Positions 10,738-43,853 of a stretch of 64,000 nt of DNA are shown here, one piece after another. Numbering within the stretch: position 1 is the stretch's first letter; the number at the start of each line of letters is the position of its first letter. Source of the stretch: Streptomyces roseoverticillatus (GTDB lineage Bacteria > Actinomycetota > Actinomycetes > Streptomycetales > Streptomycetaceae); assembly GCF_000719265.1 (NCBI RefSeq), contig NZ_JOFL01000013.1, forward strand, positions 141,873 to 205,872. The letters are read 5' to 3'. The notes below the pieces were generated by a model. That model searched no databases, was not told where the DNA came from, and was given only the letters and a program-made list of their open reading frames with translations. The translations under genes were made by a program, and so were the position numbers.

Positions 10738-11466
10738 ATGGCGGGGCAGTCCTGCCTGATCAGCAATGACTGGATCTGCGGAGAGTATCTGCGGACCCGG
10801 GGCCAGGAGTTGACGGACGCCACGCTCCAGCACGTCGGCATCACGCTCGCGTCGGTGGCCATAGGGCTGCTCGTGGCCTTTCCGCTCGCGCTGCTGGCCC
10901 GCAGGTGGCGCGCCGCGGCGGGCCCGGTCCTCGGCCTGACCACCGTGCTCTACACGGTGCCGTCGCTGGCGATGTTCTCGCTGCTGGTGCCGTTCTTCGG
11001 GCTGTCGGTGTCGGTGGTGGTCACGGGCCTCGTGCTGTATTCGCTGACGATCCTCGTGCGGAACATCCTGGCGGGGCTCGCGGCGGTGCCGGAGGAGGCG
11101 CGGGAGGCGGCGCGCGGCATGGGCTACGGCCCGGTGCGCCTGCTCTTCGGGGTGGAACTGCCGCTGGCGCTGCCCGCCCTGATGGCGGGTCTGCGGATCA
11201 CCACGGTGTCCACGATCTCGCTCACCACGGTCGGCGCGATCCTGCACTACGGCGGCCTGGGCAATCTCGTCTACGACGGCATGCACAGCTATTTCAAGGC
11301 GCAGGTGCTCACCGCGTCGGTGCTGTGCGTCGCGCTGGCCGTCGCCGCGGATCTGCTCCTGCTGCTCGTCCAGCGGCTGCTGACGCCGTGGACGCGGGCG
11401 GGGAGGACGGCAGGCCGCAAGGCCGGGAAGACGGCGGTCCGGCCGGCGGCCGAGGGGGCACTCTGA
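10738..11466 (+). CDS. ABC transporter permease, OpuCB type
   Basis: 242 residues from ATG 10738, preceded by a purine-rich GGGGGAGGTGGGAG. About five membrane helices; the EAA loop (EEAREAARGMGYG) that docks on the ATPase is near residue 120. A charged C-terminal tail follows the last helix. The stop overlaps the next start (TGATG at 11464-11468). It pairs with the second permease to form the heterodimeric channel. Confidence 0.9.
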   Translation: MAGQSCLISNDWICGEYLRTRGQELTDATLQHVGITLASVAIGLLVAFPLALLARRWRAAAGPVLGLTTVLYTVPSLAMFSLLVPFFGLSVSVVVTGLVLYSLTILVRNILAGLAAVPEEAREAARGMGYGPVRLLFGVELPLALPALMAGLRITTVSTISLTTVGAILHYGGLGNLVYDGMHSYFKAQVLTASVLCVALAVAADLLLLLVQRLLTPWTRAGRTAGRKAGKTAVRPAAEGAL

Positions 11467-12149
11467 TGGGCGTCGTGGAGCGCACGTGGACCTGGCTGAT
11501 CACGGGCGCGCACTGGTCGGGCACGGACGGCGTGTGGCACCGGCTCGGCGAGCACCTCTTCCTGACGGTGGTGTGCCTGGCGATCTCCTGCGCGATTGCG
11601 CTGCCGGTGGCCGTGCTGCTGGGCCATCTGGGCAAGGGCGGCGCCCTCGCGGTCAACATCTCCAACGCGGGCCGTGCCGTGCCCACTTTCGCGGTGCTGG
11701 TGCTGTTGCTGCTCAGCCCGCTGGGCACGCACGGCTCCTGGCCGACGGTCATCGCGCTGGTGCTGTTCGCGATACCCCCGCTGCTGACCAACGCCTACGT
11801 GGGCATGCGCGAGGTGGACCGCGATGTGATCGAGGCGGCCCGCGGCATGGGAATGACGGGCCGCCAGCTCATAGCGCGCGTGGAGCTCCCGCTGGCGTTC
11901 CCGCTGATCGTGACGGGCGTGCGGACCGCCGCCGTGCAGGTCGTCGCCACGACCACGCTCGCGGCCCTGCCCGGTGGCGGCGGCCTGGGCCGCATCATCA
12001 CGGCGGGCTTCCGGCTCACCGACACCGCCCAGGTGGTGGCCGGCGCCGTGCTGGTGGCGGCGCTCGCGCTGCTCGTCGAGGGCGTGCTGATGCTGGCGGA
12101 GCGGCTGTTTGACCCGGCGCGGCGGCGTACGGTGCCGGTGCCGGGGTAG
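11466..12149 (+). CDS. ABC transporter permease, OpuCD type
   Basis: 227 residues with a typical BPD_transp_1 helix pattern and its own EAA motif (REVDRDVIEAARGMGM). The first base of its ATG is the last base of the upstream stop codon, so both permeases are made in a coupled way. Followed 65 bases later by the binding-protein gene. Confidence 0.9.
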   Translation: MGVVERTWTWLITGAHWSGTDGVWHRLGEHLFLTVVCLAISCAIALPVAVLLGHLGKGGALAVNISNAGRAVPTFAVLVLLLLSPLGTHGSWPTVIALVLFAIPPLLTNAYVGMREVDRDVIEAARGMGMTGRQLIARVELPLAFPLIVTGVRTAAVQVVATTTLAALPGGGGLGRIITAGFRLTDTAQVVAGAVLVAALALLVEGVLMLAERLFDPARRRTVPVPG

Positions 12150-31657: not shown

Positions 31658-31735
31658 TCGCGGTCCCTATGTCCGAATCGCGCCCCTATCACATGGCTCC
31701 GGAAGGGATGCTTCCCACGCGGAAGGCGGGCTGAA

Positions 31736-31769
31736 CCTTCCCGGGGGGTTTGTGTTTTTCCGGGAAAGG
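31736..31769 (+). terminator. Hairpin between argA and lsr2
   Basis: CCTTCCCGG at 31736-31744 pairs with CCGGGAAAGG at 31760-31769 with one bulge; the loop of 15 bases ends in TTTTT. It probably ends argA transcription. The bases that follow, up to lsr2, are unusually AT-rich and hold the lsr2 promoter; AT-rich DNA is also what Lsr2 binds. Confidence 0.5.
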
Positions 31770-31817
31770 CGGTTTGCTATTCCTCCGTAATCCCATTTTC
31801 CACTGAAAGGATTCCCC

Positions 31818-32159
31818 GTGGCGCAGAAGGTTCAGGTCCTTCTTGTCGATGACCTCGACGGTGGCGAGGCCGACGAGACCGTGACGTTCGCCCTGGACGG
31901 GAAGACGTACGAGATCGACCTCACCACGGCCAACGCCGACAAGCTCCGCCAGGCGCTCGCGGACTACGTGAAGTCCGCCCGCCGCACCGGCGGCCGTGCC
32001 GCCGGCGGCCGCGGCAAGACCCGCACGGCCGCGGTCTCGGGCGGCAGCCCGGACACCGCGAAGATCCGCGCCTGGGCCAAGAAGAACGGCTACAACGTCA
32101 ACGACCGCGGCCGCGTGCCCGCCGACATCCGTGAGGCGTACGAGAAGGCCAACGGCTGA
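31818..32159 (+). CDS. lsr2: Nucleoid-associated silencing protein Lsr2
   Basis: 113 residues, GTG start after GAAAGGA. Lsr2 bridges AT-rich DNA and silences foreign and secondary-metabolite genes. The N-terminal oligomerisation domain (QKVQVLLVDDLDGGEADETV) and the C-terminal DNA-binding domain (KIRAWAKKNGYNVNDRGRVP) with the minor-groove RGR hook are both intact. Its last 70 bases overlap the antisense 3' end of the next gene. Confidence 0.97.
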   Translation: MAQKVQVLLVDDLDGGEADETVTFALDGKTYEIDLTTANADKLRQALADYVKSARRTGGRAAGGRGKTRTAAVSGGSPDTAKIRAWAKKNGYNVNDRGRVPADIREAYEKANG

Positions 32160-32716
32160 CCTTCCGGCGGACGGCGGCGTGCCCCCAGGGCTCGCAGCAG
32201 CCGGGCCCGGTGGGCCTCCGTGGCCGCCGCGCCCACCAGCCGTGCGAGATCGGGGGCGTCTCCCTCGCCCCCGAGGCCGGTCACCGGCAGTGGCGGCTCG
32301 ACCCCGCCCCCGCGGTTCCCCGGCCGGGGAGGCCGTACCCACACGGCCCGCTCCGGCCCGGCGGGCACGGGCGCGGCGATCCGCCCGCCCGGCCCCAGGA
32401 CGGCCAGGTCCAGGGCGACCGTGCCCCACTCCAGCCAGTCGAGCAGCTCCGGCAGCTCGTCGGCGCTGCCCGCGGCGAGCAGGAACCACAGCCTCCGGGC
32501 CCGGGCGTCGAACACGACCGGGCCGGTGCGCACCGGGCGGCCCAGCACCGCGGCCCCCGCGTCCAGCGGCAGGCCCAGGGCGTCGAAGCGGACCCCGGTC
32601 AGCAGCTCCAGGGGCGCCTCGCCGGAGGTCGGCCAGCCGAGCGCGCGCTCGTACCACCGCCGCGCCTGGCACCATGGATCTGCGGGGCCCCCGGGGCACG
32701 GGTGGACAACGGTCAT
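32090..32716 (-). CDS. SCO3374-family protein
   Basis: 208 residues. The protein has WCQARRWYERALGWPTSG near the start and a beta-rich middle (RLWFLLAAGSADELPELLDWL), with faint likeness to the primase-polymerase-like domain of streptomycetes, but no catalytic residues can be assigned. The family is known only from this genome position next to lsr2. The C-terminal 23 codons are antisense to lsr2. Confidence 0.75.
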   Translation of the reverse strand: MTVVHPCPGGPADPWCQARRWYERALGWPTSGEAPLELLTGVRFDALGLPLDAGAAVLGRPVRTGPVVFDARARRLWFLLAAGSADELPELLDWLEWGTVALDLAVLGPGGRIAAPVPAGPERAVWVRPPRPGNRGGGVEPPLPVTGLGGEGDAPDLARLVGAAATEAHRARLLRALGARRRPPEGQPLAFSYASRMSAGTRPRSLTL

Positions 32717-33215
32717 ATGCGGTGCAACTGCGAAACACCCAAGAGGTTACTCTGGGTTGGTAGTTGGGCACACTCCGTATAAGGGCTGGGGGGCGCACAG
32801 GCGCTTCGGGCGGTGCGAGGGTGTTCGCCCGTAGCGGATGGACGGTGCCCGCGCCGCATGGACTGTCAATCCTTGCGGGTAAGAGGTTCCCCATGGGAAG
32901 AGGCGGTGCGACACCGCGCGGAGCGCGTCACCGAGGGTGGCGGCGGGCGATGGGCGGGCGTGTCGGGCCGGGCTCGCGTTCGCCGTCGGCGTAGTGACGG
33001 CGAGCGTATATGCCTGGCCTGCGGGAACATCGTCTCCCACCATCGGGTTGGAGGAGATGTCGGCTGTTCGGCAGCAGGTTTCCCCGCCGACGCGGGGTGA
33101 TCCGGACGGATGTCGGCAGTTGGAATGAGCTGTCCCGTCCCGCGGGACTAGCATGCGGAAGGACAGGGAGGGGACCGACCCCTACTTGCCTGACCGCTCT
33201 GAGGAGCGATTAACG
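32717..33215. promoter_or_regulatory. Divergent control region upstream of clpC with two ClgR-like sites
   Basis: 499 bases without a supported gene. TTCGC-N5-GCG, the ClgR site pattern known upstream of clp genes in Streptomyces, occurs at 32824-32836 and at 32979-32991, both preceded by G or GTG. A small hairpin (ACCC-AGAG/CTCT-GGGT, 32737-32757) lies just before the minus-strand gene. TAGCAT at 33149-33154 could be a clpC -10, but no good -35 was found. Confidence 0.5.
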
Positions 33216-35741
33216 ATGTTCGAGAGGTTCACCGACCGTGCGCGGCGGGTTGTCGTCCTGGCTCAGGAAGAAGCCCGGATGCTCAACCACAACTACATCG
33301 GCACCGAGCACATCCTCCTGGGCCTGATCCACGAGGGTGAGGGTGTCGCCGCTAAGGCCCTGGAGAGCCTCGGGATTTCGCTCGAGGCGGTCCGCCAGCA
33401 GGTGGAGGAGATCATCGGCCAGGGCCAGCAGGCCCCGTCCGGGCACATCCCCTTCACCCCCCGTGCGAAGAAGGTCCTGGAGCTCTCGCTCCGCGAGGCC
33501 CTTCAGCTCGGCCACAACTACATCGGCACCGAGCACATCCTGCTCGGCCTGATCCGCGAGGGCGAGGGCGTCGCCGCCCAGGTCCTCGTGAAGCTGGGCG
33601 CCGATCTCAACCGGGTCCGTCAGCAGGTCATCCAGCTGCTCTCGGGCTACCAGGGCAAGGAAGCCGCCACGGCCGGCGGCCCGGCCGAGGGCACCCCCTC
33701 GACCTCGCTCGTCCTGGACCAGTTCGGCCGCAATCTGACGCAGGCCGCTCGTGAGTCCAAGCTCGACCCGGTCATCGGGCGCGAGAAGGAGATCGAGCGG
33801 GTCATGCAGGTGCTGTCCCGCCGCACCAAGAACAACCCGGTCCTCATCGGCGAGCCCGGCGTCGGCAAGACCGCCGTCGTCGAGGGCCTGGCCCAGGCCA
33901 TCGTCAAGGGCGAGGTGCCCGAGACCCTCAAGGACAAGCACCTCTACACCCTCGACCTCGGCGCCCTGGTCGCCGGCTCCCGCTACCGCGGTGACTTCGA
34001 GGAGCGCCTGAAGAAGGTCCTCAAGGAGATCCGCACCCGCGGCGACATCATCCTGTTCATCGACGAGCTCCACACCCTGGTGGGTGCGGGCGCCGCCGAG
34101 GGCGCGATCGACGCCGCCAGCATCCTCAAGCCGATGCTGGCCCGCGGTGAGCTGCAGACCATCGGTGCCACCACGCTCGACGAGTACCGCAAGCACCTGG
34201 AGAAGGACGCCGCGCTGGAGCGCCGCTTCCAGCCCATCCAGGTCGCCGAGCCGTCGCTGCCGCACACCATCGAGATCCTCAAGGGTCTGCGCGACCGCTA
34301 CGAGGCCCACCACCGCGTCTCCATCACGGACGAGGCGCTGGTCCAGGCCGCCACGCTCGCCGACCGCTACATCTCCGACCGCTTCCTGCCGGACAAGGCG
34401 ATCGACCTGATCGACGAGGCCGGCTCCCGGATGCGCATCCGCCGGATGACCGCGCCGCCGGACCTCCGCGAGTTCGACGAGAAGATCGCCGACGTGCGCC
34501 GGGAGAAGGAGTCCGCGATCGACTCGCAGGACTTCGAGAAGGCCGCCTCCCTGCGCGACAAGGAGAAGCAGCTCCTCGCCGCGAAGGCCAAGCGCGAGAA
34601 GGAGTGGAAGGCCGGCGACATGGACGTCGTCGCCGAGGTCGACGGCGAGCTGATCGCCGAGGTCCTCGCCACGGCCACCGGCATCCCGGTCTTCAAGCTG
34701 ACGGAGGAGGAGTCCTCCCGCCTGCTGCGCATGGAGGACGAGCTCCACAAGCGCGTCATCGGCCAGAAGGACGCCATCAAGGCGCTCTCCCAGGCCATCC
34801 GGCGCACCCGTGCGGGCCTCAAGGACCCCAAGCGTCCCGGTGGATCGTTCATCTTCGCCGGCCCCTCCGGTGTCGGTAAGACCGAGCTGTCCAAGACGCT
34901 CGCCGAGTTCCTCTTCGGCGACGAGGACGCCCTGATCTCCCTCGACATGTCGGAGTTCAGCGAGAAGCACACCGTCTCGCGCCTCTTCGGCTCGCCCCCC
35001 GGCTACGTGGGCTACGAAGAGGGCGGCCAGCTGACGGAGAAGGTCCGCCGCAAGCCGTTCTCGGTGGTCCTGTTCGATGAGGTCGAGAAGGCCCACCCGG
35101 ACATCTTCAACTCGCTCCTGCAGATCCTGGAGGACGGTCGCCTGACCGACTCCCAGGGCCGGGTCGTGGACTTCAAGAACACCGTCATCATCATGACGAC
35201 CAACCTCGGCACCCGGGACATCTCCAAGGGCTTCAACCTGGGCTTCGCCGCCCAGGGCGACGTCAAGACCGGCTACGAGCGCATGAAGGCCAAGGTCAAC
35301 GAAGAGCTCAAGCAGCACTTCCGGCCCGAGTTCCTCAACCGTGTCGACGACACGGTGGTCTTCCACCAGCTCTCCCAGGAAGACATCATCCAGATCGTCG
35401 ACCTGATGGTCGCCAAGGTGGACGAGCGGCTGAAGGACCGCGACATGGGCATCGAGCTCAGCGCGGAGGCCAAGCAGCTGCTGGCCAAGAAGGGCTACGA
35501 CCCGATCCTGGGCGCCCGTCCGCTGCGCCGCACCATCCAGCGCGAGATCGAGGACATCCTCTCCGAGAAGATCCTCTTCGGCGAGCTGCGCCCCGGCCAC
35601 ATCGTGGTCGTCGGCACGGACGGCGAGGGCGAGGAGAAGAAGTTCACCTTCCGCGGCGAGGAGAAGTCGGCCCTGCCGGACACTCCGCCGATCGAGCAGG
35701 CCGCGGGCGGGGCAGGTCCCAACCTGTCCAAGGACACGTAA
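33216..35741 (+). CDS. clpC: ATP-dependent Clp protease ATP-binding subunit ClpC
   Basis: 841 residues; ATG 33216 follows GAGGAG. AAA+ unfoldase that feeds substrates to ClpP. The N-terminal double Clp repeat has two [19 protein letters not shown] blocks; the first AAA domain has GEPGVGKTA, the middle domain contains a UVR-type coiled coil ([15 protein letters not shown]), and the second AAA domain has GPSGVGKTE and [25 protein letters not shown] sensor-2 region precedes a 50-residue tail. Likely under ClgR control. Confidence 0.97.
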
Positions 35742-35771
35742 GCGTTCCGCTCCTTCGCTCATTCCGCGACA

Positions 35772-35813
35772 GCGGGCCGGCCCCGGAACCCCACGGTTCC
35801 GGGGCCGGCCCGC
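35772..35813. terminator. Strong bidirectional terminator after clpC
   Basis: A perfect 19-bp stem (35772-35790 with 35795-35813) with a 4-nt loop CCAC, followed by GTTTT. It insulates clpC from the convergent trypsin-NACHT gene, whose stop codon is five bases away. Confidence 0.95.
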
Positions 35814-35817
35814 GTTT

Positions 35818-38148
35818 TCAGCGAATGGCCGCCACCACATCCTGGCCGAGGGAGTGCAGCTCCCTCTGGTCGCGGGCCGGCAGCAGCCTTTTCAGACCCG
35901 CCCACACCTGCTGGTACTGGTCGTCCTCGATGTACTTCGCATTGAGCGCGCAGTGGGCCGCCAGCGCCCGCAAGGGCCACTCCGCCTCCCGGTCCGGGGC
36001 CGCGTCCGCCGCCGCCGTCAGACCGGCGATGAGACGCCGTTCCTCGCTGCGCCCGCAATGGCCGACGGCCAGCCGCAGCACGTCCTGCCACTGCTCCTCC
36101 GCCGCGTGGAGCAGCAATTCGTCCAGGCAGTCGCTCTCCTGGAGCTCCTTCGCCGCCAGATAGTCCTGGAAGGTGCGGTGGATGAACTGGATCGAATCCG
36201 GGGCCTGCTCCTGGAGCAGGCCGCTGCGATTGAGCAGATACGTCAGCACGACGGGCGTCGCGCCCTGGGCCCTTACGCGGCGCAGCCCGCGCAACGCCAG
36301 GTCGAGCTGGCGGACCGCCTGCTCCCGGCTGAGTTCCGCGCGGCCGTTGCGGACCAGCCAGACGGCGATTCTCTGCAGCAGTTGCCGGCTCTCGTCCGCC
36401 GTGAGTTCAATGCCCTCCGGCTTGAGAATGCGGCGGTGCGCGTCGCGTCTGGCCAGCATCAGGTTCAGCGCGGCGCTGTAGAGGTCCCAGCGGGTCTTCG
36501 GAAGGAGACCGTTCCACTGCCGGTGCAGGGCGCAGATGACCGCGCAGAGCAGCGGCGTCCGCGCCAGGTCACGTAATACGGAATTGCGTTCGAATTCATG
36601 GCCGAGTTCGGGTTCGAGTTTGTCGAGCCGGGCGCGCTGCCGTTTCGCCCAGTGCTCGTCGGCATATCTGTCGCATTCCAGCCGTGCGGCCCGGTGCCAC
36701 GCGGCGGCGAACGACCGGATGTCCTCGTCGCCCATGGGGAGCAGCCGCAGCTCCTCGAACCCCTCCTGATCCAGCCAGTCGCCGCCTACGGCCAGCGGGC
36801 GCACGGTGACCAGGCAGCGCGTCCGCGGATACATCCGCAGGAGCCCGGCGAGCCATTTGCGGGCCAGCTCGCGGTCCGCCTGCGGGATCTCGTCCATCCC
36901 GTCGACCAGGAGGAGCCCGCGCCCCGCCTCCAGCACGCGCCCGGCCCAGCCGTCGGGCGGCCGGTCCACCGGCAGCCGCGCGATCTTGGGGAGCTGGGAC
37001 GGGGTGGGGGAGGTGATGCCCCGGGCGGCCAGGCTGCGCATGGGGACCACGAACGGGATGAGGCCGTCGAGCTCGGCCAGCTGCTCGGGCAGGGTGCGGC
37101 ACACGGTGTGGGAGGCGAGCCACCACACGAGTGTCGTCTTGCCCGCGCCCGCCTCGCCCCGGAGGACCGTCCTCGGCCGGGAGCCGAGGAGGTCCTCTAT
37201 GCGCCGGGGCTCCGGGACGTCCGGAGGCGGGGCCCCCAGCGGCTCCGGGGTCCCTAGCGGCTCCGGTGCCCCCAGTGGCTCCGGAGTCCCTAGCGGGTCC
37301 GGGACACCGTACGGATCCGGGTCGGAGGGGCGCGGCGACTGCGCCTCCAGGCTGAAGTAGGCCGTGTCCAGATCCCAGTCGCCCGGGCCGAGCTCGTCCA
37401 GGCCGAAGATCTCCAGCCGGCTGTAGGCGGCCTTGACGGCCTTCGCGTAGGCGGGCTCGTAGGCCAGGTCCTCGGGGTAGGCGGACGAGATCTCCTCGAA
37501 CGCCGGGAGGTCCCGCCAGTGGTCCAGCAGGGCCGTCATGAAGCCGGAGTCGGCGATCACCGCGGCCAGCGGCACCGACTCGACGGACGAGTGCTGCCAG
37601 CCCATCGGGTCCCCGCTCGCGATACCGATCAGCAGCGGGCCCGCGAACACCGGCCCGCCGGACAGGCCCGCCCACGGCGAGCCGTCCGGGACGGGCGCCG
37701 GCGGGTGGTGGTCCGCGTGCAGCACGTACCGGCCGCGCATCCGCCCGGCCAGGGGCATCAGCGTGCCCGGTACCTGCACGGCCTCCAGCTCCTCGCCCGC
37801 GTACCGCTGCACCCTCGGGAACCCCAGGACCTGGCAGCGCGGCATCGGCTGCCAGCCGGCGCACTTGCCCCACCGCAGCGGCGGCACCTGTGCGAGGGGC
37901 AGCACGGGCTCACGGGCCACGAGGAGCGCCACGTCGCACGTTTCCGGGTCGCCCGACCAGGCGATGTCGCAGAGCACGGGCCCGCCGCCGTCCGGTGCGG
38001 TGACCTCGACCACGTCGTCCTTCCGGAACAGGTGCGCGCTCGTCAGCACCAGCTCCGGCGTCAGCAGCACCCCGCTGCCCTGCCGCGCCCCCAGCACGGC
38101 CACCAGCCGGTCCTCCACGGACGGCAGCGACGCTCTCGCCCCGCCCAC
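35818..38148 (-). CDS. Trypsin-like protease fused to a NACHT-type STAND NTPase
   Basis: 776 residues, GTG start. Residues 1-210 are a trypsin-like domain with the triad in order: His in LTSAHLF, Asp in CDVALLV, Ser in GLSGGPVF. A Pro/Glu/Leu repeat linker (about 275-315) leads to the NTPase: Walker A GEAGAGKTT near residue 335, Walker B GLLLVDGMDEIP, sensor region RCLVTVRPL. The C-terminal part has the winged-helix and helical layout of NACHT proteins (FIHRTFQDYLAAKEL). No classical repeat sensor follows. Some stretches (around 36560-36680) have less G/C-biased codons than the neighbours. It is coupled to the Trypco2 gene with a 2-base gap. Confidence 0.9.
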   Translation of the reverse strand: MGGARASLPSVEDRLVAVLGARQGSGVLLTPELVLTSAHLFRKDDVVEVTAPDGGGPVLCDIAWSGDPETCDVALLVAREPVLPLAQVPPLRWGKCAGWQPMPRCQVLGFPRVQRYAGEELEAVQVPGTLMPLAGRMRGRYVLHADHHPPAPVPDGSPWAGLSGGPVFAGPLLIGIASGDPMGWQHSSVESVPLAAVIADSGFMTALLDHWRDLPAFEEISSAYPEDLAYEPAYAKAVKAAYSRLEIFGLDELGPGDWDLDTAYFSLEAQSPRPSDPDPYGVPDPLGTPEPLGAPEPLGTPEPLGAPPPDVPEPRRIEDLLGSRPRTVLRGEAGAGKTTLVWWLASHTVCRTLPEQLAELDGLIPFVVPMRSLAARGITSPTPSQLPKIARLPVDRPPDGWAGRVLEAGRGLLLVDGMDEIPQADRELARKWLAGLLRMYPRTRCLVTVRPLAVGGDWLDQEGFEELRLLPMGDEDIRSFAAAWHRAARLECDRYADEHWAKRQRARLDKLEPELGHEFERNSVLRDLARTPLLCAVICALHRQWNGLLPKTRWDLYSAALNLMLARRDAHRRILKPEGIELTADESRQLLQRIAVWLVRNGRAELSREQAVRQLDLALRGLRRVRAQGATPVVLTYLLNRSGLLQEQAPDSIQFIHRTFQDYLAAKELQESDCLDELLLHAAEEQWQDVLRLAVGHCGRSEERRLIAGLTAAADAAPDREAEWPLRALAAHCALNAKYIEDDQYQQVWAGLKRLLPARDQRELHSLGQDVVAAIR
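37225..37320 (-). repeat. 18-bp repeat array encoding the protease-NTPase linker
   Basis: Four imperfect 18-base units encode PEPLG-T/A-type hexapeptides (PLGTPEPLGAPEPLGTPEPL). They keep the frame and sit exactly between the protease and NTPase domains, so the array sets the length of a stiff Pro-rich tether. Confidence 0.8.
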
Positions 38149-38150
38149 CG

Positions 38151-38489
38151 CTACTGCCCGGAGGGCCCGAACCGCGACACCCCGCCCGGCCGCTGGTTGC
38201 CCACGCGCCAGCTGCCGCCCGTGCGCGTGTCCTTCGGGGTCAGGGTGAACGCGACCTTGTGCGTACGGGTGGAGCCGCGGGACGCCTCCGCGTCCGCGCT
38301 GATCACCCAGGCCTTCACCCCGCCCGAGCCCTTGGCGTCCTTGCGGATCTCGACGGTGAACTCCATGGCGATCTCGCCCACCTCGAAGGCCAGGTCCTGG
38401 CCCGTGCCCCGGGCCGCCGCCGAGGTCAGGCCCTCCCGGACCGCCTGTACGGCATCCGCCAGCTCGATCTCCTCGAACCCGCTGCTCAT
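38151..38489 (-). CDS. Trypco2 (trypsin-co-occurring domain 2) protein
   Basis: 112 residues from ATG 38489, with GGGGGCGGA before it. The pattern IELADAVQAVREGLTSA, then FEVGEIAMEFTVEIRKD, GVKAWVISADAEA and THKVAFTLTP fits the Trypco2 family, described by comparative genomics as a companion of trypsin/NTPase conflict systems. It is a small alpha+beta protein without catalytic residues. Its stop (TAG at 38153-38151) is two bases from the GTG of the protease-NTPase, so the two are made together. It may hold the protease inactive or serve as its substrate; that is inference. Confidence 0.85.
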   Translation of the reverse strand: MSSGFEEIELADAVQAVREGLTSAAARGTGQDLAFEVGEIAMEFTVEIRKDAKGSGGVKAWVISADAEASRGSTRTHKVAFTLTPKDTRTGGSWRVGNQRPGGVSRFGPSGQ

Positions 38490-38848
38490 CGTCCGCCCCC
38501 AGCCCCTGTGGGCCGCACGCTCCGTGTGCGGCCGCCGACGGGGAGCGTACCGCCGCGGCCGGGCCTTTGGTCCCGGAACCGGGGAGGCCGAATGTCCTTC
38601 GGCGGTGACACCCGCCATAGGACGTGGGTCACGTACTAAGGGAAATAGCAGAAGGCCCCCGCCTGGTAACCGCCGAAAAACGGGCGGAATCCCTCGGAAT
38701 CCCTGGTCGGAAGGGGTGCGATTTCCCTCCCTCCGCTACGGCATTCGTTAGTAGAGGCCGTCCTTGGCAGCCCGGCGAATGCGGGTTACCAAGGTAGGGC
38801 GATCCCGGTCCGCAGCCGGGACCTGTTTATGCCTGGAGGTTTATCCGT
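38490..38848 (+). promoter_or_regulatory. Divergent region with structured leader upstream of the M23 peptidase
   Basis: 359 bases with no gene. On the + strand: a hairpin CCGCC/GGCGG (38670-38674 with 38683-38687), a tandem 10-mer CGGAATCCCT at 38685-38704, a stem CCTTGG/CCAAGG (38762-38767 with 38789-38794) enclosing CCCG/CGGG, and a stem TCCCGG/CCGGGA (38803-38808 with 38816-38821) just before the GGAGG. It looks like a folded 5' leader; it lacks the conserved cores of the ydaO (c-di-AMP) riboswitch. Confidence 0.45.
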
Positions 38849-39583
38849 ATGTCGAAGCGCACCGCTTTCCGTAACCCGAGCAAGACCGTTCTCCGTACCC
38901 GCGCCGCCGTCGTGGCGGCCGGCCTGGGAGCCTCGGTCGCGCTGGGTTCCGGGGTCGCGCTCGCAGCCGACACCACCGCCTCGGTGAGCGAGTTCCCGGC
39001 GTTCGCGTCCGTCGCGACGCTGCAGGACGCGCTGAACAAGCAGGCCGAGACGCAGCTGAAGGTGGCGGAGAAGGAGAAGCAGGCCGCCGAGCAGGCCAAG
39101 CGGGACGCCGACAAGCGTGCCGACGACGCCCGCAAGCAGGCCGAGGCCTCGCGCAAGCGCGCCGACGCCTGGGTCGCCCCCGTCGCCGGCTACCAGATCG
39201 GCCAGCCGTTCGGTAAGGCCGGCGCCATGTGGGCCCACAAGCACAGCGGCCAGGACCTCGTCGTCGGCACCGGCACGCAGGTCATGTCCGTCCACGGCGG
39301 CACCGTCGTCAAGGCCGGCCCGAACGGCGGCGGCGACGGCCCCGCCTACGGCAACGCCATCGTGATCAAGCACGCCGACAACACGTACTCGCAGTACGCC
39401 CACCTCTCGCAGGTGAAGGTCTCGGTCGGCCAGACCGTCACGACCGGCCAGGTCATCGGCCTGTCGGGCTCCACCGGCAACTCGTCCGGCCCCCACCTGC
39501 ACTTCGAGATCCGCACCACCCCGAACTACGGCACCGCCGTCGAGCCGGTCGGCTTCCTGAAGGCCCACGGCGAGACCCTCTGA
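38849..39583 (+). CDS. Secreted M23 (LytM) peptidase
   Basis: 244 residues. Signal peptide ending ALA near residue 41, then a Lys/Ala/Glu coiled coil (about 60-107, KVAEKEKQAAEQAKRDADKR), then the LytM domain. The metal ligands are in HKHSGQDLV and HLHFE, and the other active-site His in QYAHLSQ, so it should be an active zinc endopeptidase on peptidoglycan cross-links. GGAGG lies nine bases before the ATG. The leader upstream suggests RNA-level control. Confidence 0.93.
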   Translation: MSKRTAFRNPSKTVLRTRAAVVAAGLGASVALGSGVALAADTTASVSEFPAFASVATLQDALNKQAETQLKVAEKEKQAAEQAKRDADKRADDARKQAEASRKRADAWVAPVAGYQIGQPFGKAGAMWAHKHSGQDLVVGTGTQVMSVHGGTVVKAGPNGGGDGPAYGNAIVIKHADNTYSQYAHLSQVKVSVGQTVTTGQVIGLSGSTGNSSGPHLHFEIRTTPNYGTAVEPVGFLKAHGETL

Positions 39584-42288: not shown

Positions 42289-42957
42289 TCAGCCCTCCGT
42301 TCCCACGCTGGGGAAATCGCCCTTGTCGTTGTTTCCGGCCTTGCTGTAGTCGGTGTGCGTGCGCCCGGTCTCCCGGAACTCCGACCCCGACCAGTGGTAC
42401 GTCATGACATCCTCGCCCGACGCGCAGCACACCGCGTCACCGGGCCCGTAGACCTGCTTGGTGACCCGGAGGTCGCGGCGGTCGATCTCGGCGTACACCG
42501 GCGCCTGCTCGATCATGAACACGTTCTCGTACGAGCCGTCGCCCTTGGCACGGTACACATACGAGCCCACGCCCACGGAATCGCCACAGGTCAGGATGTT
42601 CACGACGATGTCGTCCCGGGAGCCGTCGGTCAGCTTCCCGTAGATCACGTCCAGCGGGTACTGGTTCTTCACACAGGGCTTCAGGTCCTTCTTGACCTGC
42701 GCGCTGATCTTCGGGTCGCCCTTGAGCAGCTTGACCGCGTCGACCTTGTCCTGCGGCCGCTCCGCCGTCGCCGAGGCCGAGGGCAGCCGGGTCGGCTTCG
42801 CGGCGGACTGCGTCTGCGCGGTGCCTTCCTTGCGCACGCCCTCGCTGCCCGCATTGCATCCGGCAAGCAGAAGACCGGCGGCAGCGGCCAACGCGGTGAC
42901 CGTGCCGCCGGTGATCAGAACCGGCCTGGGGGGAGCCGCCTTTTTCAGGCTGCGCAC
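42289..42957 (-). CDS. cseA: Lipoprotein CseA, negative modulator of the SigE response
   Basis: 222 residues from GTG 42957. The start lies inside the end of sigE (13-base overlap), so translation is coupled. Signal peptide with lipobox LAGC at residues 31-34, a Thr/Ser/Ala-rich linker, then a mature domain with four further Cys (CVKNQ, ILTCG and adjacent CC). In S. coelicolor CseA sits outside the membrane and dampens the response, probably by acting on CseC. Confidence 0.88.
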   Translation of the reverse strand: MRSLKKAAPPRPVLITGGTVTALAAAAGLLLAGCNAGSEGVRKEGTAQTQSAAKPTRLPSASATAERPQDKVDAVKLLKGDPKISAQVKKDLKPCVKNQYPLDVIYGKLTDGSRDDIVVNILTCGDSVGVGSYVYRAKGDGSYENVFMIEQAPVYAEIDRRDLRVTKQVYGPGDAVCCASGEDVMTYHWSGSEFRETGRTHTDYSKAGNNDKGDFPSVGTEG

Positions 42958-43493
42958 CGTTCCTGCCCCCGCTCGTTGCGCTCGAGGGCATGGAAGTCCA
43001 GGTCGCGGCTCTCCAGCTCCTGACGCAGCCGGGCCAGGGCCCGGTGCAGCGTGCTCTTGACCGTTCCGGTCGACATCCCGAGCGCCTCCGCGGTCTCCTC
43101 GGTGCTCATCTGCTCCCAGTGTCGCAGCACGACGACGCTGCGCTGCTTGGGCGCCAGGACACCGAGGATGTCCATCAGCAGCGCGCGGTCGGCGTGCTGC
43201 TCCGTGCCGTCCTCGACGCTGGCGTCGGGGAGCTGCTCGGTGGGCACCTCGTCGAGCTTGCGGGCGCGCCACCACTCCGTACGAGTGTTGATCATGACAC
43301 GGCGGAGGTAGGCGTCGGCCAGCGACTTGTCCGCTATGCCTTCCCAGCGGCCGTAGGTGCGCACGAGGGCGGTCTGGAGGAGGTCCTGCGCGTCGATGGG
43401 GTCCGGCACGAGACGGCGGGCGCTGCGCAGGAGCGCGTCCTGACGGTTGCGCACGTACTCCTCGAAGTCCAGAACCTTGCCGCTGCTGGCCAT
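42945..43493 (-). CDS. sigE: ECF RNA polymerase sigma factor SigE
   Basis: 182 residues from ATG 43493 with GGAGG six bases before. Region 2 (EEYVRNRQDALLRSARRLVP, PIDAQDLLQTALVRTYGRW) and region 4 (VLAPKQRSVVVLRHWEQMST, TGTVKSTLHRALARLRQEL) are intact. In S. coelicolor it directs cell-envelope stress genes and, unlike most ECF factors, is controlled at transcription by CseB/CseC and not by an anti-sigma factor. Confidence 0.96.
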   Translation of the reverse strand: MASSGKVLDFEEYVRNRQDALLRSARRLVPDPIDAQDLLQTALVRTYGRWEGIADKSLADAYLRRVMINTRTEWWRARKLDEVPTEQLPDASVEDGTEQHADRALLMDILGVLAPKQRSVVVLRHWEQMSTEETAEALGMSTGTVKSTLHRALARLRQELESRDLDFHALERNERGQERCAA

Positions 43494-43853
43494 CTCGCAG
43501 CCTCCATTCCGCTTGCATCCCCGCGTCACGCTGGTGGTCTCCCAGCACGAGAAGGACGCTACGGAGGTGCTGTTGCGGCGTGATGTGCGGCAGCACTGCG
43601 GCTGGTGCACAGCTGTCCATAGGTTGTGTAACAGCGTTGCGGGAGCAGGGGCGGTAGGGCGTGAAAAGGGGGCTCTGTCCTGTTCGCGAGGGCCTTTCGG
43701 CAGGTCACGGCGGGTCTTGCGACACGGCCGTGTGACGGACTCCGTGACAGAGACATGGCGGGGCTGCGCACTGCGCCCGGCGGCGGCCGTGTGACGGGGC
43801 CGCGCGCTGCGCCGGCGGCAGCCGTGTGACGGGTTCCGCGACGGGGTTCGCAC
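43494..43853. promoter_or_regulatory. sigE upstream region with three direct repeats
   Basis: 360 bases between the end of mutY and sigE, both on the - strand. GCCGTGTGACGG is present exactly at 43727-43738, 43786-43797 and 43821-43832, with related TCCGTGAC and GTCACGG nearby. The sigE-proximal 200 bases hold no repeat I can name; the CseB-dependent promoter is expected there. Confidence 0.45.

Follow-up and report, generated by a model that had tools for sequence, protein, structure and literature searches.

Bacterial NACHT proteins with leucine-rich repeats (LRR), trypsin-STAND fusions and Trypco2 genes neighbouring trypsin genes are each known already. In the case of Hachiman and AVAST proteins, fused trypsin effectors cut and activate a partner encoded upstream, an experimental result (PMC12799240). 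Among animal NLRs, NLRP3 devoid of its LRR has been reported to be still triggerable (PMC6281599), and a contrary report describes the LRR as necessary for NLRP3 function in macrophages (PMC9763864). The present study concerns a gene pair in a 64,000-nucleotide stretch of Streptomyces roseoverticillatus DNA (contig NZ_JOFL01000013.1, positions 141,873 to 205,872; hereafter the window), in which a gene for a 112-amino-acid (aa) Trypco2 protein is followed by a gene for a 776-aa trypsin-NACHT protein, both on the minus strand and flanked by clpC and an M23 peptidase gene.

Analysis of this pair and its relatives points, with moderate confidence, to a bacterial NLR-type immune switch with a protease effector, from which the LRR has been lost. 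In the open-licence literature, as far as its available parts extend, no description was found of the Trypco2 plus trypsin-NACHT-LRR combination, the LRR-less clade, the clpC-M23 site or the Trypco2 tail.

Domain organization and predicted fold

The two genes are exactly those delimited in an earlier reading of the window letters (the original prediction), the TAG stop of the Trypco2 gene being separated by 2 bases from the GTG start of the longer gene. Pfam detected NACHT (2e-19), Trypsin_2 (1.5e-6) and Trypsin (1e-4) in the 776-aa protein. In an alignment of 81 sequences, comprising the window protein and 80 loci brought in by similarity, H39, D72 and S163 of the protease, K337/T338 of Walker A and D416/D419/E420 of Walker B were identical in all 81, which bears out both the intact serine protease triad and the NACHT-type NTPase of the original prediction. 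A strict GxSGGP expression failed in 41 of 120 listed homologues (120 of the 688 found); the aligned serine is nevertheless invariant in the 80 aligned sequences, from which P0091 (68% query coverage, no precomputed trypsin domain) was left out. The Walker A motif, the acidic Walker B cluster and the helical WHD/HD2 region are those of a NACHT-clade STAND NTPase, and the His/Asp/Ser triad in a trypsin fold is that of an S1 trypsin-like serine peptidase, here a predicted protease.

The AlphaFold2 model of the protein (predicted local distance difference test, pLDDT, 83.4; predicted template modelling score, pTM, 0.82) contains an HtrA/V8-like protease and a NACHT core resembling NLRP3, NOD2 and NLRC4; these structure alignments cover the chains ranked by Foldseek, and the core may resemble further NTPases as well. 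The predicted Pro-rich tether between the two parts was likewise recovered, at residues ~276-317, with pLDDT below 50 at 275-310 and a mean identity to the window protein of 0.03 at residues 276-300. The pre-NACHT segment ahead of it belongs to the part of the protein, beginning at residue 134, that aligned to NLRP3, and was also matched in the trypsin-less NACHT proteins of the same chromosomal site. A search of a viral fold library returned mostly viral proteases, and its top entries included one phage protein with an NLR-like annotation. Domains, invariant residues and fold matches thus support an NLR/STAND-type switch with an N-terminal protease effector.

Loss of the LRR region in the window clade

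Most relatives of the window protein are longer: among the 120 listed homologues, 105 have 983-1158 aa, two have 867 and 916, and 13 fall below 850 aa, while 74 of the 81 aligned sequences extend more than 150 residues past the end of the window protein. In 44 long homologues, Pfam found LRR_4 in 18, LRR_14 in 9 and HEAT_2 in 4, and their profile matched solved LRR proteins at positions ~840-1058 (best 5.6e-18). In the window protein, whose last residue is 776, Pfam detected no LRR. The earlier remark that its C-terminus lacks a clear repeat sensor therefore holds for this protein, and most relatives carry LRR at that place. Because it has no C-terminal leucine-rich repeats, though its long relatives have them, the window protein is to be classed from its sequence as NLR-derived, and not as a bacterial NLR by the NACHT-LRR definition.

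The window protein groups with those of L003, L004 and L005 in a single clade (support 1.0) nested within the longer forms, and all four stop at the identical point, where their relatives enter the HEAT-LRR region. L015 and L016 are also short and end at other points; the independence of the L015 loss from that in the window clade is uncertain (tree support 0.23-0.60). Within the four-sequence clade, the ratio of nonsynonymous to synonymous substitution rates (dN/dS) was 0.20-0.28 for the whole gene and 0.07-0.13 for the NACHT domain. Since the relatives have an LRR that is absent from this clade, the short clade is, on sequence grounds, a derived, sensor-reduced form, whose gene keeps an open frame and evolves under purifying selection.

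The HEAT-LRR region had a dN/dS of 0.42-0.59 in six pairs of longer forms, versus 0.05-0.39 in NACHT, and mean pairwise identity among 74 sequences was 0.68 for NACHT, 0.47 for trypsin and 0.30 for HEAT-LRR. A fast-changing HEAT-LRR region over a conserved NACHT core is the pattern expected of a sensor, the role that this region probably has in the relatives.

The clpC-M23 interval in Streptomyces

In 59 of the 80 similarity-picked loci, clpC was present within the fetched DNA. Another 13 loci (L039, L040, L048, L049, L054, L055, L060, L065, L070, L071, L074, L075 and L077) have the trypsin-NACHT gene between flanks of a second kind that resemble one another, and a Trypco2 match was present in each of these loci.

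For a census whose loci were not picked by similarity, 150 genomes of the genus were sampled, and the clpC 3' flank was taken from the window and from 145 of the other 149. Of the resulting 146 regions, the 122 that contained the M23 gene as well were counted as complete intervals: 60 lacked a NACHT gene above threshold, 38 had NACHT without trypsin, 23 had trypsin-NACHT, and one had Trypco2 with a non-trypsin NACHT gene. All 23 trypsin-NACHT loci of the census carry Trypco2, and at 21 of them trypsin and NACHT lie in one open frame; L148, L204 and L210 hold a non-trypsin NACHT gene in addition to the trypsin-NACHT gene. L120 (G005), counted among the 60 NACHT-free intervals, has NACHT and Trypco2 fragments between clpC and M23 and is a decayed copy of the same locus. 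Three non-trypsin NACHT proteins were scanned, that of L220, which is one of the complete intervals, and those of L104 and L128, which are not among the 122. All three contain an NNH1 helical domain, and L220 alone has an LRR match above the cut-off. From the census and the NNH1 scans it follows that one chromosomal site accommodates related NACHT genes with differing N-terminal parts, or none.

The locus comparison across Streptomyces proposed in the original prediction thus revealed presence and absence as well as varied NACHT types at one site, an immune-like mode of evolution. The result that was to speak against that prediction, a strictly conserved housekeeping gene whose catalytic residues have disappeared from most homologues, was not obtained: the trypsin type occurred in 23 of 146 regions, with the catalytic residues the same in 81 of 81 sequences, but two of the 23 frames are broken. 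A strict housekeeping gene finds no support in the census.

The divergence of the gene also fits immune-like evolution, as does the fast-evolving LRR of its relatives. Between the window and L003-L005, DNA difference was 1.8-3.4% for five flank genes together, 3.0-4.5% for Trypco2 and 8.3-14.5% for the trypsin-NACHT gene, which thus diverges 3.6-8.2 times as much as the flank genes and more than any other gene in the compared 10 kb. Its synonymous distance was 0.21-0.39 versus 0.03-0.15 in clpC, the histidine kinase gene, M23 and Trypco2. The raised divergence is not confined to this gene, because the non-coding stretch 38601-38800 is as diverged (79-81%). In the gene tree the window groups with L003 (bootstrap 100), and in the flank tree with L005 (bootstrap of only 75). 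Allele exchange by recombination would be a good reading of both the raised divergence and the tree conflict; faster evolution in place, without recombination, may also have yielded the raised divergence.

These data bear on a host function of the switch, as a ClpC-linked regulator of development or protein quality control and not an anti-phage device. The position beside clpC is indeed repeated in Streptomyces, and the window protein has an HtrA-like protease fold, which is common in quality control. However, 60 of the 122 complete intervals lack a NACHT gene, the site takes differing NACHT types, the trypsin-NACHT gene is more diverged than its neighbours, a related pair is plasmid-borne, and clpC is convergent with the trypsin-NACHT gene and not co-transcribed with it, so that a host function appears unlikely. 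Putative phage defence is the probable role, judged by the kind of protein and its evolution.

The Trypco2 partner

The 112-aa protein matches Trypco2 (PF19631) at 6.5e-29, with 100.5 bits against a cut-off of 24.2, and has no other Pfam match; the profile match and the adjacency of the gene to one for a trypsin-like peptidase assign it to this family. The tight pairing with the protease that had been predicted was confirmed, with Trypco2 at all 23 census loci and matched in 75 of the 80 named loci. In 61 of the 75 measured pairs (with starts chosen by script) the two genes overlap by 4 bases, which suggests translational coupling, the corresponding gap in the window being +2; three loci have both genes in a common frame. 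In L044, Trypco2 (11285-11608) lies downstream of the trypsin-NACHT gene, between that gene and clpC.

Across the phylum, Pfam detected Trypco2 in 3 of 198 genomes, all of the window's genus and too few for context statistics. Six of 30 plasmid records matching Trypco2 were opened. In NZ_CP108340.1, Trypco2 precedes a NACHT gene with trypsin and, by profile, a HEAT-LRR-type tail. In four of the six it precedes a TPR protein matching the trypsin profile built in this analysis and Pfam nSTAND_NTPase5 (below the cut-off in L257); Pfam's own trypsin models fall short of 1e-3 in these TPR proteins, and L254 has its trypsin part in frame but ahead of the start that is annotated. In L255, neither a NACHT nor a trypsin-TPR gene follows Trypco2 within the stretch shown. 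Because it also precedes trypsin-TPR STAND-like fusions, Trypco2 in these cases goes with the trypsin domain, and not with a particular NTPase or sensor.

Beyond the core domain, the NACHT-linked Trypco2 proteins share a C-terminal tail, in which, among 74 sequences, F107 is conserved in 73, G108 in 72, V96 in 69, N98 in 66 and W94 in 61, while position 95 is basic in 53 and position 89 in 45. The tail of the TPR-linked proteins is different. One further Trypco2 homologue, read by eye, has no W..N..FG tail. Tail distances gave a partial r of 0.40 with trypsin (NACHT held constant) and of 0.08 with NACHT (trypsin held constant), while core distances track trypsin and NACHT alike (0.36 and 0.37); among related sequences, the tail-trypsin correlation is a weak indication.

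These features invite a variant of the favoured model, possible but to be held tentatively, in which Trypco2 would be a substrate or pro-effector cut by the activated protease, the cut protein or its freed tail being active. The pair shares its gene order with the pro-nuclease/protease-fusion pairs of AVAST, Lamassu and Hachiman (PMC12799240). The basic residues of the conserved tail could be trypsin-type cut sites, and the tail follows the protease in its distances. However, the best-kept tail residues (F107, G108, V96 and N98) are not basic, no second Pfam match makes Trypco2 an effector, and distance correlations among related sequences are weak evidence.

An LRR-bearing paralogue

Another trypsin-NACHT protein, 1106 aa long, is encoded in the genome of the window; it has an LRR-type tail and shares ~41% identity with the window protein, and its gene adjoins one for YjeF/NAD(P)H-hydrate dehydratase. 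This paralogue is the sole match to the LRR alignment in its own genome, which gives no support to a stand-alone gene providing the LRR in trans. Among 12 related genomes searched, 11 have paralogue matches at 69-93% identity. In the five with a short clpC-site form the match is full length (to residue 1098-1105); in the six with longer clpC-site forms it runs to 1094-1099 in two and stops at 846-918 in four, the paralogue frames of G347 and G350 (long clpC-site form) being short, at 868 and 910 aa. The paralogue is the sole visible candidate for recognition in trans.

NAIP with NLRC4 provides a model for helper-sensor pairing. By analogy, the LRR-less protein could be an executor that co-oligomerises with the sensing, LRR-bearing paralogue (contig C19), a reading compatible with the favoured model and rather doubtful. 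It agrees with the paralogue being the only LRR-alignment match in the genome, with its presence in 11 of 12 related genomes, and with its full length where the clpC-site form is short, two short copies occurring in none of the twelve. Since about one such genome in 12 would be expected by chance, this absence says little; the paralogue is also present in genomes with longer clpC-site forms, and it is only ~41% identical to the window protein.

A broader, still speculative synthesis may be drawn from these observations. The window protein could represent an NLR lineage without LRR that delegates recognition: its core would be licensed by Trypco2, whose core tracks the protease across NACHT-LRR and TPR chassis and whose tail is chassis-specific, and it would fire by co-assembly with the LRR-bearing paralogue, as a helper/executor NLR with a proteolytic effector at a clpC-M23 immune site of swapped effectors.

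Proposed mechanism and its weighing

In the favoured model, that of an NLR-type switch that has lost its LRR, the ADP-bound NACHT core would hold the protease apart or inactive at rest. A trigger would cause nucleotide exchange and oligomerisation of NACHT, as judged from the family; the clustered HtrA-like protease domains would switch on and cleave a target of the cell or of the phage, and the infected cell would thereby be stopped or killed. Trypco2 would be the cognate partner, a guard that binds the protease and is displaced or cut for activity, a role favoured over that of pro-effector. Without LRR, the trigger would have to enter via the NACHT core, via Trypco2 or via co-assembly with the LRR-bearing paralogue, and the short form is expected to be competent.

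Several observations weigh against this model. None of 50,697 phage records searched matched the homologues. PADLOC called LmuA on the trypsin part (2.6e-6), and at the P-loop PDC-S68 matched only weakly (0.054). A strict requirement for Trypco2 is contradicted by five named loci that keep the protease without detectable Trypco2 on profile recheck (L021, L030, L036, L069 and L073) and by the paralogue, around which none was found within 19.9 kb. The difference of its tail between the NACHT and TPR chassis also fits chassis binding, and its structural model (57 sequences) is poor, with pLDDT 58.9 and pTM 0.30. The short clade is less constrained outside NACHT, with dN/dS of 0.27-0.34 in the protease, 0.18-0.54 in the pre-NACHT segment and 0.22-0.53 in the last 76 residues, and in two of the six longer pairs trypsin dN is as high as HEAT-LRR dN (0.382 vs 0.362; 0.101 vs 0.099). 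Finally, the frame is broken in two of the 23 census loci, L100 and L231, by decay or sequencing error, and L114 holds one broken second trypsin copy beside an open one.

Such broken copies, together with the L120 fragments, would be expected if loss of the LRR had left a non-responsive remnant on its way out, and shortened forms do recur (the 13 homologues below 850 aa, and L015 and L016 ending elsewhere). Decay of the window gene is nevertheless quite unlikely: its clade has kept the frame open and all catalytic residues, with whole-gene dN/dS of 0.20-0.28; ten of the listed homologues, with 81-91% identity, are short as well and belong to several named Streptomyces; and model pLDDT is ~73-92 across the last 60 residues.

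If the NLR-type reading is true, the locus is a bacterial natural experiment on an NLR without LRR, a matter of dispute in the case of NLRP3, because related strains have long or short alleles at the same chromosomal site, and it could show how an NLR-like receptor works without a repeat sensor domain. The clpC-M23 interval would be a ready place for finding Streptomyces NLR-type genes with varied effectors, and Trypco2, a predicted domain family, would become testable through its two chassis, its conserved tail and the protease defined as its partner.

Features of the locus

Table 1 Features of the Trypco2/trypsin-NACHT locus in the window and of the paralogue
Feature	Position	Strand	Basis
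Trypco2 gene, 112 aa, upstream partner	38151-38489	-	Pfam PF19631; length as in homologue P0123 (112 aa)
Trypco2 core domain, residues 8-85	38235-38468	-	Pfam match; common to Trypco2 proteins preceding trypsin-TPR STAND-like fusions
Conserved C-terminal tail of Trypco2, residues 86-112	38154-38234	-	Conservation in 74 sequences
Trypsin-NACHT gene, 776 aa, GTG start	35818-38148	-	Open reading frame, Pfam, AlphaFold2 model
Trypsin-like protease domain, residues ~12-210, triad H39/D72/S163	37519-38115	-	
Pre-NACHT segment, residues 226-275	37324-37473	-	Profile matches
Pro-rich linker, PEPLG-type repeats, residues 276-317	37198-37323	-	Sequence; low pLDDT; low identity
NACHT nucleotide-binding domain, residues 318-490; Walker A 331-339, Walker B 411-420	36679-37197	-	Pfam PF05729 at 327-487; invariant residues
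WHD/HD2-like helical end, residues 491-776; longer relatives run on into HEAT-LRR here	35821-36678	-	
Gap of 76 bp between convergent stops of clpC and trypsin-NACHT gene	35742-35817	.	Strong terminator-like hairpin
clpC, left flank of site	33153-35741	+	
M23 peptidase gene, right flank of site	38849-39583	+	Pfam PF01551, 1e-29
Trypsin-NACHT paralogue with HEAT-LRR-like tail	L090:9444-12764, contig C19		

The hairpin fills most of the 76-bp gap (-54.9 and -56.2 kcal/mol on the two strands), and in longer relatives the LRR coding sequence lies on this clpC-facing side. The neighbours identified around the pair are clpC, the M23 peptidase and a histidine kinase. The proteins encoded at 31689-32894 and 42289-43620 (both minus strand) have no Pfam match at E ≤ 0.001, and their relatives are placed in the same way in many orthologous loci. 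The original prediction had set the pair among core genes without integrase or tRNA: ARAGORN found no tRNA in the 64-kb window, in which Rfam also gave zero matches, and no search for integrases was made. As for the resident system it proposed, the site recurs in the genus, but the pair is not restricted to chromosomes, a related Trypco2-trypsin-NACHT pair being plasmid-borne.

Comparison with known systems

The Trypco-trypsin-VMAP ternary systems resemble the locus in that Trypco1 and Trypco2 are named as neighbours of trypsin-like peptidase genes in these predicted systems (PMC7159879), whereas the window protease sits on a NACHT core. MoxR, vWA and VMAP gave no match in the two window genes; no dedicated search of the wider neighbourhood was made.

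In Avs1 (AVAST type 1), and in Hachiman and Lamassu systems fused to a protease, a trypsin-like protease likewise sits N-terminally on a defence protein and a partner gene lies just upstream (PMC12799240), and the PADLOC LmuA match to the window trypsin region is a likeness to Lamassu. Their partner, however, is an MBL-fold pro-nuclease encoded directly upstream, while here the upstream gene encodes the 112-aa Trypco2 and the NTPase is NACHT. The CARD-NLR systems (Lysobacter; LypABC of Caulobacter) share an NLR-like ATPase, trypsin-like peptidases and an abortive or lytic response, and their CARD-peptidase-ATPase is separate from the NLR-like protein and accompanied by a gasdermin or a peptidase-endonuclease (PMC13236601); Pfam matched neither CARD nor gasdermin in the two window genes.

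The bacterial NLRs, or bNACHT proteins, such as bNACHT25, have in common with the locus the NACHT core, an N-terminal effector and, in its long relatives, a C-terminal sensing region. As described, bNACHT25 and bNACHT32 carry a PD-(D/E)XK nuclease, and bNACHT02 and bNACHT12 a short SNaCT C-terminus with no discernible effector; the locus differs by its trypsin-like effector, its Trypco2 partner gene and the LRR-less window form. Compared with NLRP3, NOD2 and NLRC4 of animals, the window protein has a protease in place of PYD or CARD.

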